From NCBI GenBank assembly GCA_030037525.1, contig JASHRC010000139.1:1-39239 (forward strand): DNA of 39,239 bases, read 5' to 3'. This DNA is from Candidatus Acidiferrales bacterium (lineage in GTDB: Bacteria; Acidobacteriota; Terriglobia; Acidiferrales; UBA7541). Under the pieces are notes generated by a model. The model saw only the letters and a list, made by a program, of their open reading frames with translations. It was not told the DNA's origin and did no database searches. The position numbers were made by a program, and so were the translations under genes. The first letter of the stretch is position 1. Each line of letters starts with the position of its first letter. This document shows positions 15,903-20,472 of this stretch, piece by piece.

Positions 15903-16847
15903 TCAAGCATTGGGGGTATGCTCCGGCCGATGCGGGCCGGCGTTCCGCTGATCGGTCCGTTCGAGCGACTGCTCGGCGTCGGTGATCAGATCTGCGGGCT
16001 TCCAGTCGTTGCCCTCATACCATTTGTAGACCGTGCCGTCCGGATTGATCACCGTCGTGCTCAGAGAATGCGTGATCTGGTCACCGGAAAAACTGTAGTA
16101 CAGACCAAAGAAATTCGCGACCGCGGGCAGCTCGCTCGCGGGAACCGTCGCGAAGTTCCAGCGGTCGAAGGGATGACCGCCGGTGATCGGGTCGAAGGTG
16201 TGGGCGTATTTTTTCAGCACTGCGGGCGTGTCATTTTGGGAATCGAAACTGAGCGTGAGCAGGCGGATTCTCCTCGGGGTTCGCTCGCGGAGCTGAGCGT
16301 AAATCCGAGCAAAATTTCGCGAGACCAGAGGACAAAAATCGGGAAACGGACAGCGCGTATAGATGAAGGTGACCAGGACAACGTTTCCCCGAAACGTGTG
16401 AAGATGGACTTGCTGGCCGTCCTGATCGATCACGTAAAAATCAGGTACATTTTCTCCCGGCTTCGGCTCGTGAGAGGAGGCGCCTGGAGGGCTGGCCGCA
16501 CCCGGCGCCGCTTTTTTCGTCACCACAATGTTTTCCAGATAGGCACCGTCGCTCGTGACGACCACGTCGGCGGTGATTTCATCTCCGGGATTGAGCGATG
16601 CCAGAGATTTCGTGTCGCGAACCGGGTACGGCATCGTCATGGCGGCCATGAAGCCGGGAATCTCCTGGCCGTCCACGTTGAGGGTTCCGTGCGCGGCATC
16701 GATCGAAACAACCTTCCCAACCAGGTGATAACGTTTCGCTTGGGTCTCTCGAACCGCGGACTTACTGCACCCGGCCGACGCCGCCGTCAGCGCAACTAGA
16801 ACGATAGCGAGCGCCGCCCTGGGATTGCTCCGACGAGGATTCGACAT
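15903..16847 (-). CDS. SCO1-family lipoprotein with N-terminal CusF-like copper domain
   Basis: The 314-aa product is a predicted lipoprotein with lipobox SAGC at Cys27. Residues 42-105 resemble CusF-type copper-binding domains, including the methionine-rich FMAAMTMPY (Met67, Met70, Met72) and LNPGDEITADVVV. Residues 130-290 form a thioredoxin-like SCO1/SenC domain, with metal-site cysteines in YTRCPFPDFCP (Cys166 and Cys172) and the conserved His260 in DQITHSL. Classical SCO1 has CxxxC; here five residues separate the cysteines. SCO proteins deliver copper to cytochrome oxidase or act as thiol reductases at the membrane. A strong ribosome-binding site (AGGGAGAAAAGG) precedes the ATG. It is the last gene of a four-gene minus-strand block with a TonB-dependent receptor and a Cys/His-rich small protein, which suggests copper handling. 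Confidence 0.92.
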   Translation of the reverse strand: MSNPRRSNPRAALAIVLVALTAASAGCSKSAVRETQAKRYHLVGKVVSIDAAHGTLNVDGQEIPGFMAAMTMPYPVRDTKSLASLNPGDEITADVVVTSDGAYLENIVVTKKAAPGAASPPGASSHEPKPGENVPDFYVIDQDGQQVHLHTFRGNVVLVTFIYTRCPFPDFCPLVSRNFARIYAQLRERTPRRIRLLTLSFDSQNDTPAVLKKYAHTFDPITGGHPFDRWNFATVPASELPAVANFFGLYYSFSGDQITHSLSTTVINPDGTVYKWYEGNDWKPADLITDAEQSLERTDQRNAGPHRPEHTPNA

Positions 16848-16901
16848 CCTTTTCTCCCTTCGAGTCTTTTAAATTGTACGCCGGTTTTGCCACCCGTCAG
16901 G

Positions 16902-19208
16902 TCAGTAATGGAACCGATAGCGAAACTGCGCGTAGATTTGGCGCGGTTCGTTCCAATGGAAACCGCCAAAGGTAAGACTGTTGTCCAGTTGCACGCGGTA
17001 ATTGGCGACATTGAGCGCGGTCACCGAAATCGTGTATTTCTCGGCGAAAGTTTTTCCGACCGAGAGGTCAAACGTCGTATGGGCAGGCAGATACGGCCCG
17101 GGATATTGCGCGTTCGGCATGCCGTAGAGCCCGTTGGTGAAGCCGGAGCCGTAGTAGACGTTTGTTGAGGCATACATCTGCCAGGGAAGGTTCGAGTTGA
17201 AGCCCACGTTCAAGGTGTTTCTCTGATCGTGATCCACCGGCGAAAATCCCGGAGGTATATCTAATCCGCACGCCGGCGTCACCGGGACTGGGCAAATCAG
17301 CCCACCGGTGATCGGGGAAGTTGCCTCGGCAATCTGATTAGCATAGGCGAGGTGAAACTGACCGCGATGCCAGATGGTCGGCGATCGCAGAGTAAGTTCC
17401 CAACCTTGAATCAAGGCCCTGTCCCAGGTGATCGGCCAGAACAGATTGGACTCTCCGATGTTGTTGTGATCCAGCCAATTCCTGGCCCTGGTCACATAGT
17501 TGTCGGCGTCCAAAGTCCAGCCCCGAAAAGGCATCAGGACCCCAATCTGGTATTCAATATCGCGCTCACCATGCAAGGGAGCGAAAGTAAAATTCTGGCT
17601 GTTTGCCAGGCCGAGAAGCGCGCCCGTTGCTGTCACCAGCGGCGGGGCCTGGTAGTAGTAACCGTAAAAACCGCGAAAGACCCAATTCAAAACTGGAATT
17701 CTCAATGTAGCGCCCAGGCGAGGGTCGGTGGCGTTCTCCGTAATCGAGGATCTGAACTCGGTTTGGCGCAACCCGGCAATGAGAGTCAACCAGGAGTTCA
17801 CCTTGAATTTGTCGTCGAAAAACTGGGCGGTCACTCCGCCGTTAACGGCGATGGAGGAAGCGGGGAAGTTTTGGCTGCCATTCGTGAATTCGTTGTCAAA
17901 ATCGTTGTACTGGTGCTGGCCGAATCCATAGATTCCGCCTTGAAACTCGTTTTTCCAGAAAGCTGCGCTAAAGACAGCCTGCAAGCCTCCGTAGTTGGCG
18001 GTTTGATGGACCGTTGAAATAACGGGAAAATCGTTCGGCCCCCCTTGATAGTCGGCGCCGTTGTAGTGATAGAAGGGAGAAACCGTCAGAAGCATATTGG
18101 GGCTGAAGGTGTGGACCCATGAGAAAGCGACATAGCCATCGGGCTCACGCTCCCCATCGCGGAGGCCGAAACTAGGTGACTCCCCTGCCGCTTCTAAGAT
18201 CTGATTTCCGGATGAGTCGGGATTGGGATCAATGGGTATCTGGTAGTAATCCTGCCGCAACGATGTGACCAGCCGGAACTGGTTCGCGGGATCGGGATTG
18301 AAAATGAACGAAGCGAATCCGCCGTAGCCGTTTTCCGCGTCGTGAACTGTCTGCGGGATGGGCGTCTGAAGTCCGTAATTGCTTCGATTGCCGTTCAAGC
18401 TGGCATAGTAGGCGAATCGCTCGGTATGTCCTCCGCAACTGACCTGGTCATTGGTTTGATACCAGTTCCCAAAGCTGGTGACCAGATCACATTCGCGGGT
18501 GCGTTCAAAACCGGTGCGCGGCACGATGTTGAACATGCCGTAGGTTCGGTCCCCGTAGTCGGCGTCGTAGCTGCCCCGGAGCACTTCGAGATAGTCGATA
18601 TCCTTGGGATCAACTTGCGGCCCCAAATTGGTAGCGATGTTTGTGTTTGGGATCGGAACGCCATCAATCAGCCAGCTGACCTGATGGCCCCCTCGCATGT
18701 GCAGCATATCGTGTGTCACGTAGGCCGCGGGCACGTAGTCTGTGATCATCTCCAACCCGTTGGTGCGGTCTGCTCCGGGAGTCTCCTCGATGGCTTCGCG
18801 GTCCAAAATCGTCGTCGGCGTCACACTATCGGTCGTCGCCTCGACGGGAGCTTCTGAGACGACCACAGTTTCACTGACACTGGCGAGAAGTAACTGTAGA
18901 TGCAGCACGGGGGAAGTGTCGGAAGCAAGCTCGAAGCGCTGTTGCGCAGGGCTGAAGTTTTTCGCTTCCGCGGTGACGACGTAATCGCCGAAGGGCACTG
19001 CCGGAAACGAAAATCGACCCTCGTCGTTGGTCTGGGTCGACTGAGACCAATCCGAAGTGGACGATTTGATTTCGACCAACGCATTGGCGACGGGTCGGTG
19101 CTGCGGGTCGTGCACAATTCCGCGCACCTCGCCGAAAACAGTTGCCCAGGCCGTCCACACGAAAAGAAAAAGGCCCGCCGCGGGCAGCAGAAAAACACCT
19201 CTCCGCAT
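16902..19208 (-). CDS. TonB-dependent receptor with N-terminal carboxypeptidase-regulatory-like domain
   Basis: This is an outer-membrane gated channel that takes up a ligand using TonB energy. The 768-aa product has a signal peptide (basic MRRG, hydrophobic core to about residue 23). A carboxypeptidase-regulatory-like beta-sandwich follows (about 26-105, GEVRGIVHDPQHRPVANALV). Next is a TonB-box-like SETVVVSEAP near 113-121. The plug domain (about 125-240) has MLHMRGGHQVSWLIDGVPIP and IDYLEVLRGSYDADYGDR. The rest is a 22-strand-type barrel ending in aromatic FRYRFHY, as expected for BAM recognition. It is shorter than typical Oar-like receptors. The ribosome-binding site GGAGGAGG precedes the ATG. 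It lies 43 bp after the Cys/His-rich gene and 54 bp before the CusF-SCO1 lipoprotein. The ligand is unproven; copper or a copper chelate is my inference from context. Confidence 0.93.
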   Translation of the reverse strand: MRRGVFLLPAAGLFLFVWTAWATVFGEVRGIVHDPQHRPVANALVEIKSSTSDWSQSTQTNDEGRFSFPAVPFGDYVVTAEAKNFSPAQQRFELASDTSPVLHLQLLLASVSETVVVSEAPVEATTDSVTPTTILDREAIEETPGADRTNGLEMITDYVPAAYVTHDMLHMRGGHQVSWLIDGVPIPNTNIATNLGPQVDPKDIDYLEVLRGSYDADYGDRTYGMFNIVPRTGFERTRECDLVTSFGNWYQTNDQVSCGGHTERFAYYASLNGNRSNYGLQTPIPQTVHDAENGYGGFASFIFNPDPANQFRLVTSLRQDYYQIPIDPNPDSSGNQILEAAGESPSFGLRDGEREPDGYVAFSWVHTFSPNMLLTVSPFYHYNGADYQGGPNDFPVISTVHQTANYGGLQAVFSAAFWKNEFQGGIYGFGQHQYNDFDNEFTNGSQNFPASSIAVNGGVTAQFFDDKFKVNSWLTLIAGLRQTEFRSSITENATDPRLGATLRIPVLNWVFRGFYGYYYQAPPLVTATGALLGLANSQNFTFAPLHGERDIEYQIGVLMPFRGWTLDADNYVTRARNWLDHNNIGESNLFWPITWDRALIQGWELTLRSPTIWHRGQFHLAYANQIAEATSPITGGLICPVPVTPACGLDIPPGFSPVDHDQRNTLNVGFNSNLPWQMYASTNVYYGSGFTNGLYGMPNAQYPGPYLPAHTTFDLSVGKTFAEKYTISVTALNVANYRVQLDNSLTFGGFHWNEPRQIYAQFRYRFHY

Positions 19209-19251
19209 GCTCTACCTCCTCCACTTAAATTTGTTCTTACTGGATGGCAGG

Positions 19252-19623
19252 CTACGAGCGGGGGGGAATGAAGGGAGCGGACCGGAATCCTGGCGCTGTC
19301 GATTGCCGAGAGAGTCCGACCGCTTGCCTGACAGCACCGGGAGCAACCAGGGTGGCGAACCTTTCAGGCGCCGTGGGAGCGATCGGAGCGATCAAGCCGA
19401 AATCGGGCAGTTTCCCGGATTTTGATGTGCAGTGGCAAGCCGCCAGCCGGTCGGAATGCCCGTGGCCATGCGGCATGCAGCACATCATCGTGCAGGTCGG
19501 CGATTCGCAGGAAAGGGCGCGGGCCAGAAGTGCCAGTGGGGTGGCCAGAAGTGCCAGAAGGATCACCAGAATTTGAAGGCGACGCACGAAAAGGAGGCTA
19601 GCACAGCCTTTTGCGCGGTGCAA
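19252..19623 (-). CDS. Small Cys/His/Met-rich membrane or secreted protein
   Basis: The 123-aa product has no family I can name. It has a basic N-terminus, a hydrophobic segment (about residues 16-36), then a dense putative metal-binding cluster at 39-65. The cluster holds Cys39, Cys44, Met46, Met47, Cys48, Cys49, Met50, His52, His54, His56, Cys63, His64 and Cys65 (within CTMMCCMPHGHGH and CHC). The rest is Pro/Ala-rich and low in structure. The start is TTG 19623 with AAGGGG upstream, only 12 bp after the methyltransferase stop; GTG 19587 is an alternative. The gene is 43 bp before the TonB-dependent receptor. Its reality is supported by gene packing and by the non-random clustering of Cys, His and Met right after the membrane segment. 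A copper or other soft-metal role is inferred. Confidence 0.65.
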   Translation of the reverse strand: MHRAKGCASLLFVRRLQILVILLALLATPLALLARALSCESPTCTMMCCMPHGHGHSDRLAACHCTSKSGKLPDFGLIAPIAPTAPERFATLVAPGAVRQAVGLSRQSTAPGFRSAPFIPPRS

Positions 19624-19635
19624 TCTTCGGGCCCC

Positions 19636-20472
19636 TTAGGCGGTGCGGTGGTTTCTCGGCCGGAAGGCCACGGCCATGACATGCGCGCTCGCGCCTTGCA
19701 GCGAAGATTCGCTTTCGATCCAGGAAAGAAGCTCAAGAAGTTTCTCTCGTTGTTCTCTGTCTCTCCATGCCGGGCCGAACCGAGCCGTGCTCCAAGCGGG
19801 ACCTTCGATCGCCAGTATCTGGACATCCCCGAATCCCGCCTTGCTGACCTCGGCGGCCAATTCCCCGGGACGGTGAAAGTAAGCGGTCGTGAAGTAAGAA
19901 GGTTTGTCCGTCTCATTGCGGTGTACCCCGCGGGCCAAATCTGCTTCTACGATTTTGCGAAACTCCGGATCCTGAAAGAAACCCCGAGCGAGCCCGTCGA
20001 GCAGTGACGCGAAACGAGAGATCGAGGCGGCGAACAGGACGCCGTGCGGTTTCAGGACGCGCCGTGCTTCCCGAAGCGCGCGGAAACGATCCGAGCGGCG
20101 AACCAGATGGTACAACGGTCCGAATAGGAGAACGGCATCGGCCCTGCTTCGCGGGAAATCCAGGTGGCGGGCATCGCCGCGCACAATCGAAGCCAATGTG
20201 ACCCCTGACTTCGCCGCATACGAGTGCGCTTGCTCCAAGTGAAGCTGAACCGGGTCGATGAGGTGGACCTGGTATCCTCGTTTAGCGAGTGGGACGGCAT
20301 ATGCTCCGGCTCCGCCGCCCACGTCGACAATCACTGCCGGTGCCGGAGGCAGGTGCCGAGCCAAAATGGCCTGGGTCCTCAGTCGCTCGAGTTCACCCAC
20401 GGGTCCCGACAACCGCTCCCACTCTTTGCCCTCAAGATAGTGTGCCTCGATTTCTTTGGCTATCCGTCGCAT
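19636..20472 (-). CDS. Class I SAM-dependent methyltransferase
   Basis: The product is a soluble Rossmann-fold methyltransferase of about 278 aa. Motif I is VIVDVGGGAGAYA, the acidic end of strand 2 is in VHLIDPVQLHLEQA, motif II-like GDARHLDF follows, and then DAVLLFGPLYHLV and the post-motif ARRVLKPHGVLFAA. The ending (AHVMAVAFRPR) is typical of small-molecule methyltransferases. I chose ATG 20472 because residues from there on (MRRIAKEIEAHYLEG) look like the family N-terminus. A TTG at 20529 would add 19 residues. The substrate is unknown. It is the first gene of the block leading to the Cys/His-rich protein, the TonB-dependent receptor and the SCO lipoprotein, and it is divergent from the histone-deacetylase-like gene. 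Confidence 0.87.
   Translation of the reverse strand: MRRIAKEIEAHYLEGKEWERLSGPVGELERLRTQAILARHLPPAPAVIVDVGGGAGAYAVPLAKRGYQVHLIDPVQLHLEQAHSYAAKSGVTLASIVRGDARHLDFPRSRADAVLLFGPLYHLVRRSDRFRALREARRVLKPHGVLFAASISRFASLLDGLARGFFQDPEFRKIVEADLARGVHRNETDKPSYFTTAYFHRPGELAAEVSKAGFGDVQILAIEGPAWSTARFGPAWRDREQREKLLELLSWIESESSLQGASAHVMAVAFRPRNHRTA

Follow-up and report, generated by a model that had tools for sequence, protein, structure and literature searches.

The question raised by this locus is whether a small Cys/His/Met-rich open reading frame (ORF) that precedes the gene of a TonB-dependent receptor (TBDR) encodes a free periplasmic protein or a regulatory leader peptide. The ORF lies on contig JASHRC010000139.1 of a Candidatus Acidiferrales bacterium (4.2 Mb in 286 contigs), whose 39,239 bp are here called the window. 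An earlier note on this DNA had placed it in a four-gene copper-handling operon, as a periplasmic copper binder acting between the receptor and a CusF-SCO1 lipoprotein, and had named no described system with this gene set. Re-reading of the ORFs confirmed four minus-strand frames in the claimed order with gaps of 12, 43 and 54 bp, the Pfam analysis agreed with the domain calls, and a count by hand returned exactly six Cys, four His and three Met in residues 39-65 of the 123-aa frame. The comparative analyses led to a different view of function: the 111- to 123-aa ORF would be a cis-acting regulatory leader peptide (an upstream ORF, uORF) of the type of CruR and CutF, a reading to which we give a probability of roughly 70%.

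The small frame is open from a TTG (19252..19623, minus strand, as are all window features given below; 123 aa) and showed no credible Pfam family (best match 0.03). The TTG at 19623 was rejected as the start, as relatives begin with MRR..., and the GTG at 19587 is probably the start because it aligns with this MRR... beginning; the resulting arrest-type leader peptide has 111 aa (19252..19587; VRRLQILVI...) and an N-terminus judged by eye to be hydrophobic. The residues counted above form a putative metal-sensing cluster (C-x4-C-TMMCCMPHGHGH...CHC; 19429..19509), proposed from the sequence and from the conserved Cys of the homologues. The C-terminus reads FIPPRS, that is, PPRS-stop, and its Pro-Pro codons CCC CCC (19261..19266) are the proposed stall site, based on the sequence and on the Pro-Pro/Cys spacing in relatives. 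Downstream lie the TBDR (16902..19208; 768 aa; CarboxypepD_reg, Plug and barrel in Pfam) and the lipoprotein with the CusF-SCO1 fusion (15903..16847; 314 aa; Pfam CusF_Ec 5.8e-12 and SCO1-SenC 1.5e-17).

The small protein was searched in 101 genomes (its own and 100 relatives), 26 of which, its own included, matched at E<=0.01. Twenty of the 28 listed matches, all clear full-length homologues and the window's own among them, were used as uORFs. Left out were L019 (broken frame in that match; its counterpart L117 has a uORF), L022 (partial, serving solely to place the uORF of L052), the weak or unrelated frames L024, L026, L027, L028 and L030, and L029, a second piece of L016. The TBDR follows the uORF in 19 of the 20 relatives' regions. 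After the TBDR, CusF-SCO or CusF alone was found in 10 regions (two cut by the contig end); it was absent in five, in four the contig ended before it could be seen, and L040 has no TBDR. In L040 (7176-8144, minus strand), a 322-aa protein with a weak Phenol_MetA_deg match replaces the TBDR after a PPRA-type uORF, as if the leader were coupled to another outer-membrane-type protein.

A profile of these 20 homologues, run against 396 genomes of the phylum, matched the own genome and one other, with up to 11 candidates scored per genome shown; the sparse matches were therefore not taken as absence, and the route through the TBDR was used. This second set was drawn with a TBDR profile and not by a trait of the uORF (best 80 of 517 relatives). 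It is not independent of the first, because loci such as L083, L084, L095, L109, L110, L113 and L114 overlap with regions of the relatives. The TBDR homologues came mostly from Acidobacteriaceae, Candidatus Acidiferrales, Sulfotelmatobacter, Bryobacterales/Bryobacteraceae and unplaced Acidobacteria or Terriglobia. Of the 78 loci with enough upstream DNA to be informative, 73 showed an ORF, no more than 250 bp upstream of the TBDR start, that holds four or more Cys and has Pro-Pro in its last 12 residues; the uORF of L060 ends 517 bp upstream, which brings the total to 74/78 over a wider span. The same rule picked out 14 of 293 other long-ORF starts (by eye unrelated frames) and 318 of 9372 arbitrary positions. 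Genomes of Granulicella or Edaphobacter, culturable Acidobacteriota, also have the uORF-TBDR pair (L076, L129, L116, L122 and L124). Two contigs titled Betaproteobacteria and Nevskia soli (L094 and L097) carry Acidobacteriota-type uORF-TBDR pairs and are possibly misbinned bog metagenome contigs.

Judged from these comparisons, the small Cys/His/Met ORF and the TBDR form the conserved core, and in many cases CusF-SCO or CusF comes next. The co-conserved neighbourhood that had been proposed as a check was recovered for this part, and the class I methyltransferase (19636..20472; 278 aa from ATG; Pfam Methyltransf_25 2.6e-18), claimed as an operon member, did not belong to it. The 20 relatives' regions yielded no homologue at E<=1e-5 (L034 shows about 390 bp upstream of the uORF), nor did the 80 TBDR loci at E<=1e-8, where 70 of the 74 uORF loci show more than 900 bp upstream; one of the 20 relatives' genomes has a homologue, on a piece without uORF or TBDR. 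The four-gene operon including the methyltransferase was consequently rejected, and by this comparison the gene is an extra at the window locus, outside the conserved unit. A divergent histone-deacetylase-like gene lies less than 200 bp from the uORF in 12 of the 20 regions and within 1.7 kb in 16, and because it lies so close upstream the uORF heads its transcription unit in these relatives; in the 80-locus set it occurs within 2 kb of 11 of the 74 uORFs. In the window, the methyltransferase sits between this divergent gene and the uORF, unlike in the relatives and TBDR loci searched.

What is conserved within the small protein is narrow. In the alignment of the 20 homologues, the invariant positions were A12 and A19 in the hydrophobic N-terminus, the Cys residues C36 and C53, and P108 and P109 of the C-terminal Pro-Pro, and R110 was present in 19; all 20 end in PP[R/Q] plus one or three residues before the stop, with Gln after Pro-Pro in one. 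Among the 74 uORFs of the TBDR set, the tails were RAPP/RGPP in 49, PPR in 22 and of other kinds in three (49/19/6 when a shorter tail was counted). The alignment of 40 of the 49 R-x-PP uORFs left C34, R112, P114 and P115 as its sole invariant residues. A Cys stands 50-57 residues ahead of Pro-Pro in 74/74 uORFs, most often at 53, while in 500 shuffles of the uORF bodies this was true of 30.5 uORFs on average and of no more than 44/74; in the window, 54 and 56 residues separate Cys from Pro-Pro. Length and body sequence vary, and the Cys-to-Pro-Pro spacing and the C-terminal motif are kept.

Such a layout is known. CruR, a DUF2946 protein of B. pertussis (bp2923), is encoded upstream of the copper TonB-dependent transporter (TBDT) BfrG/CrtA, which it places under copper control; 45 residues separate its CXXC from RAPP, and five added residues strongly weakened the copper effect (PMC9426467). 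RAPP arrest of CruR was obtained in vitro, and RAPP/RGPP uORFs were reported ahead of TonB genes across Gram-negative phyla (PMC12992588). The window ORF resembles CruR as a small exported-type Cys protein that precedes a TBDR, may head its operon and ends in a Pro-Pro motif, with near-fixed Cys-to-Pro-Pro spacing (45 residues in CruR against 50-57 here, about 10 more in the window) and with RAPP/RGPP in 49/74 Acidobacteriota-type uORFs. It differs in its PPRS-stop tail, in showing no Pfam DUF2946 match, in a 43-bp spacer with predicted hiding of the Shine-Dalgarno sequence (SD) instead of a 162-bp spacer with Rho termination, and in its receptor, a CarboxypepD_reg-type TBDR without a PDB match in a single-sequence search. 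CutF of R. capsulatus, located upstream of the multicopper oxidase CutO, ends in PEPEGPPPRL (PMC8456105), and a stem-loop in its 40-bp spacer hides the next SD (PMC8456105, PMC9973294). Its PPPRL-stop recalls the PPRS-stop of the window, as do its Cys motif, its N-terminal export signal and, by prediction for the window, the short spacer with a stem-loop that hides the SD of the next gene; the window uORF precedes a TBDR and CusF-SCO instead of an oxidase, and its Cys-to-Pro-Pro distance is about 10 residues longer. The window uORF has the traits by which CutF-like proteins were defined: fewer than 150 aa, Pro-Pro in the last 15 residues, an N-terminal signal (judged by eye for the window) and a same-strand gene downstream (PMC9973294). 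ApdA, ApdP, SecM-like and TonB-class uORFs are likewise small exported-type proteins with RAPP/RGPP near the C-terminus (PMC12992588), and the PPR class of the window lineage would be missed by a RAPP/RGPP search.

The last codons of the uORFs are biased at the nucleotide level as well. The first Pro codon of the Pro-Pro pair was CCT in 56 of the 74 uORFs and in 16/20 of the window-genus set, compared with 15.9% of the 725 Pro codons at other positions of these uORFs (p=3e-26), 12.1% of 3463 TBDR Pro codons and 22.8% of the first codons in 219 Pro-Pro pairs of the TBDRs. CCU-CC is complementary to GGAGG, and with CCU as the first Pro codon in the majority of the 74 uORFs, the stretch could act as the anti-SD, a difference from CutF, whose anti-SD is said to lie in its stem-loop. 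In agreement with this, predicted SD pairing on the Pro codons themselves was 0.32 in CCT loci and 0.09 in non-CCT loci. The CCT bias could also be due to a tRNA effect on stalling; the pairing predictions favour, rather than prove, Pro-Pro codons that serve as anti-SD.

RNA folding predictions suggested that this region controls the TBDR ribosome-binding site. In the window, the SD of the TBDR (AGGAGG, 19215..19220) is predicted to be sequestered by pairing with the bases just after the uORF stop codon, where the anti-SD arm CCTGCCATCC (19242..19251) directly follows. Its mean unpaired probability was 0.09 in the free RNA and 0.94 when the RNA up to 10 nt past the uORF stop was omitted to mimic a stalled ribosome, against 0.23 and 0.44 in shuffles. 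Pairing of 0.42 plus 0.49 falls at +6 to +20 nt past the second Pro codon, and as the edge of the omitted RNA was moved, the unpaired probability rose from 0.08 at -60 to 0.49 at +11, 0.84 at +16 and 0.94 at +21.

The same pattern was predicted over the whole set, in which 73 of 75 loci (the window and the 74) passed the SD and spacer filters and L060 and L066 fell out. The SD was less unpaired than in shuffles in the free RNA (0.19 vs 0.28, p=3e-7) and more unpaired than in shuffles once the uORF end was masked (0.45 vs 0.32, p=8e-10), p-values that treat related loci as independent. The edge scan gave no effect at -30/-15 nt; between 0 and +21 nt past the second Pro codon the value climbed, and it then levelled off. 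The hiding arm would therefore lie on, or just ahead of, a ribosome stalled at Pro-Pro. Per base, SD pairing peaked at the Pro-Pro codons (0.043), with values of 0.004 upstream and <=0.001 at +20 to +45, and the arm shifts among loci between the Pro-Pro codons and the bases that follow them. For 27 other same-strand gene pairs of the same loci the value went from 0.40 to 0.42 (p=0.75), in a control that is small, with only six spacers under 70, and that passed a stricter SD filter (5 of 6 vs 4 of 6). Thus, the ribosome-binding site of the TBDR is predicted to be paired, in most cases with the Pro-Pro codons or the bases right behind them, and to be freed by a ribosome that stands on Pro-Pro.

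Taken as a free periplasmic copper-binding protein or chaperone between receptor and SCO, as the earlier note had it, the small protein would account for its hydrophobic N-terminus, its Cys/His/Met cluster and its copper-type neighbours. This view leaves unexplained a body and length that vary around a kept spacing and C-terminal motif, Pro-Pro codons biased to CCT that pair with the SD of the next gene, and a position ahead of the TBDR in 19/20 relatives' regions. Moreover, the published cousins act only in cis, CutF is quickly degraded once exported (PMC9973294) and CruR is thought to be short-lived (PMC9426467). A free binder is thus very unlikely, and a cis-acting arrest peptide fits better because the invariant Cys and the C-terminal Pro-Pro stand at a near-fixed distance and the last codons are tied to the next ribosome-binding site.

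The spacer bears on how such an arrest peptide would act. As in CruR, stalling might block Rho-dependent termination between uORF and TBDR instead of freeing the SD, and the same gene pair, the RAPP/RGPP tails of 49/74 uORFs and spacers of more than 100 bp in many loci are consistent with this. The window spacer, however, measures 43 bp, with an SD predicted to be hidden and then released, and SD release was significant over the whole set. Rho control in place of SD freeing is therefore quite unlikely, and the two could coexist side by side.

The start of the transcript was addressed in 82 distinct upstream stretches, with L013, L014 and L023 of the set of 20 left out. TANNNT boxes occurred at -13 and -12 from the uORF start in 17 and 12 stretches, respectively, and within -17..-10 in 44/82, compared with 1-11/82 in five other 8-base spans. 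Among 305 control ORFs, whose starts are the first ATG or GTG of long ORFs and not curated starts, 19 had the box at -13/-12 and 40 within -17..-10. No excess of SD sequences over the control stretch was found upstream of the uORFs in these 82 stretches, and by eye L013 and L014 lack a -10 box there. The pattern points to leaderless uORF mRNAs, also in the window, where a -10-like TAGCCT lies at -13 from the GTG (19595..19600) and a possible -35 TTGCAC with a spacer of 17 was assigned by eye (19618-19623). In the window, the same-strand methyltransferase lies upstream of the uORF, yet the -10-like box suggests that the uORF has its own promoter, and its transcription without the methyltransferase is therefore possible.

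The metal to be sensed is indicated by the ligands of the leader and by the genes behind the receptor. In the CusF-SCO protein, the ligand-type residues C166, C172, H260, M67, M70 and M72 were invariant in 12 homologues, a likeness to the SCO1/SenC and CusF chaperones, from which it differs in the fusion of both in one lipoprotein and in its Cys pair. SCO proteins usually carry a C-x3-C pair; at the expected metal site this one has C-x5-C (CPFPDFC), kept in 12/12 aligned homologues. A same-strand match to the window protein lies downstream of the TBDR in 29/80 loci, and among 37 of the 60 listed downstream proteins, the next genes of 36 loci, CusF was found in 18 and SCO1 in 13. In many loci there is no same-strand gene after the TBDR, or the contig ends. 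In L043 (1717-5243, minus strand), a BNR-repeat protein and an Fe/Mn superoxide dismutase with an N-terminal extension stand between TBDR and SCO, and a cytochrome c follows SCO.

The receptor itself gives fewer indications. Its plug has the invariant residues H166, D167, H170, G173, G174, H175 and Q176, three of them His; CrtA has two conserved His, one of them essential (PMC12914433). OprC was not among its NCBIfam matches, five weak families, and a single-sequence search returned no PDB match in a PDB copy whose content of the CrtA entry was left unchecked. The profile search of PDB gave weak NOMO2, YncD and PqqU, and the predicted structure (pTM, the predicted template modelling score, 0.77) matched generic TBDTs among the fold matches listed, which are silent on copper.

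A ligand other than copper (another soft metal, or redox or export status), or a receptor that carries something else, would overlap with the arrest mechanism. SecM-type peptides sense export, CutF-like clusters with only His motifs adjoin nickel/cobalt-type genes (PMC9973294), the TBDR fold is generic, and many loci lack CusF/SCO. Against this stand the frequency of CusF and SCO among the next genes, the 29/80 loci with CusF-SCO and the suitability of Cys/His/Met ligands for Cu(I), which make a non-copper ligand or cargo unlikely. The copper theme of the earlier note was supported by the CusF/SCO downstream and the soft-metal ligand cluster, and with it the conserved Acidobacteriota neighbourhood, methyltransferase excepted. 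We infer copper as the best, though not a proven, candidate for the sensed ligand, and the receptor may import copper.

Gene order, the conservation of motif and spacing, SD pairing and release, and codon bias, as obtained by comparison and prediction, would combine as follows. From a promoter directly ahead of the uORF, a leaderless or near-leaderless mRNA would be made, and the hydrophobic N-terminus would lead the nascent peptide to the membrane. The Cys/His/Met cluster, some 55 residues ahead of Pro-Pro and hence just outside the ribosome tunnel, would sample copper while the ribosome pauses with Pro-Pro at its active site. In mRNA without a stalled ribosome, the uORF end and the start of the spacer would pair with the TBDR SD and keep the TBDR shut; a ribosome paused on Pro-Pro would cover the arm, so that the TBDR, and CusF-SCO along with it, would be opened. 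Most likely, low copper would lead to pausing and expression and copper would relieve the pause; the comparison with CruR speaks for this sign, as does a target that resembles an importer with an oxidase chaperone.

The sign could be the opposite within the same mechanism, with copper promoting the pause and switching on TBDR and CusF-SCO for the handling of excess copper or the supply of cuproenzymes. CusF is often a tolerance protein, and the PPRS-stop and 43-bp spacer of the window resemble CutF, where copper enhances the stall (PMC8456105, PMC9973294). However, among homologues of the same TBDR the leaders end in RAPP/RGPP as CruR does, and in CruR copper relieves the arrest; moreover, an importer induced by its own excess metal would be odd; the opposite sign is accordingly doubtful.

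The two tails recur on one receptor family. On a TBDR tree of 80 rows, built by a quick method and with L117 left out because of X, the distribution of R-x-PP and PPR tails needs at least five changes. One stall motif was thus apparently replaced by the other on a retained receptor, with a possible contribution from the transfer of uORF-TBDR blocks. Common descent of the PPR and R-x-PP uORFs is likely from their position and design, sequence not showing it. DUF2946 gave six matches, three over the cut-off, in 199 genomes of the phylum. One of these lies in L133 (1471-1884, minus strand), from a genome of the same class, where a DUF2946-type uORF (CPVC...RGPP) precedes a different receptor, Oar-like by eye. 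In its full form, the proposal is a Terriglobia copper-gated arrest peptide on one TBDR family, in which Pro-Pro codons (mostly CCU CCN) act as anti-SD, stalling frees the start, the mRNAs are leaderless, and R-x-P-P and P-P-R were swapped several times with spacing, codon choice and target unchanged; for this whole combination we would put the odds a little short of even.

Several points, besides the limited control pairs and the relatedness of the loci, weigh against the reading as an arrest peptide. The PPRx-stop of the window differs from RAPP/RGPP, and the CutF tail alone gave no stall in a LepB reporter (PMC9973294). Pfam DUF2946 touched only 4/40 of the R-x-PP uORFs and 2/20 of the window-type homologues, even at E<=0.1, and the profiles of these two alignments align only over 40 N-terminal columns (probability 86.6%). 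Four informative TBDR loci (L090, L093, L098 and L101) have no recognisable uORF. The window Pro-Pro is CCC CCC and not CCT, its anti-SD being placed after the stop, and over the wider span of -6..+12 SD pairing differs little between CCT and non-CCT loci (0.52 vs 0.43). Masking failed to free the SD in some loci (e.g. L053, L083 and L131), and the window mRNA segment is overall not unusually stable (z -1.32).

The kind of system is already known, because CruR, CutF and RAPP/RGPP TonB uORFs have been published; uORFs of the CruR-TBDT and CutF type before TonB receptor, SCO and CusF genes (PMC9426467, PMC9973294, PMC12992588) contradict the view that no such system had been described. The string 'acidobacter' is absent from the main texts of PMC9426467 and PMC9973294, and the available text of PMC12992588 names Acidobacteriota once, in the legend of a figure on proteome bias, its source tables possibly listing some R-x-PP uORFs; none of the papers listed in our literature searches dealt with an Acidobacteriota arrest peptide. 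Not encountered in these searches, and hence possibly new, are the TBDR family of Acidobacteriota together with its uORFs, the class with PPR tails, the swapping of motifs, the Pro-Pro codons as anti-SD and the leaderless signature.

With this finding, a control mechanism recently discovered in bacteria would be known from soil Acidobacteriota as well, in a field, copper acquisition by Gram-negative bacteria, that is poorly known. In this set, a putative metal-sensing nascent peptide is available in many natural variants, with two stall motifs and a distance from sensor to stall that is nearly fixed, so that one could test directly how metal binding outside the tunnel affects a stalled ribosome. 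The set also suggests that a widespread soil phylum has a TBDR family linked to copper.

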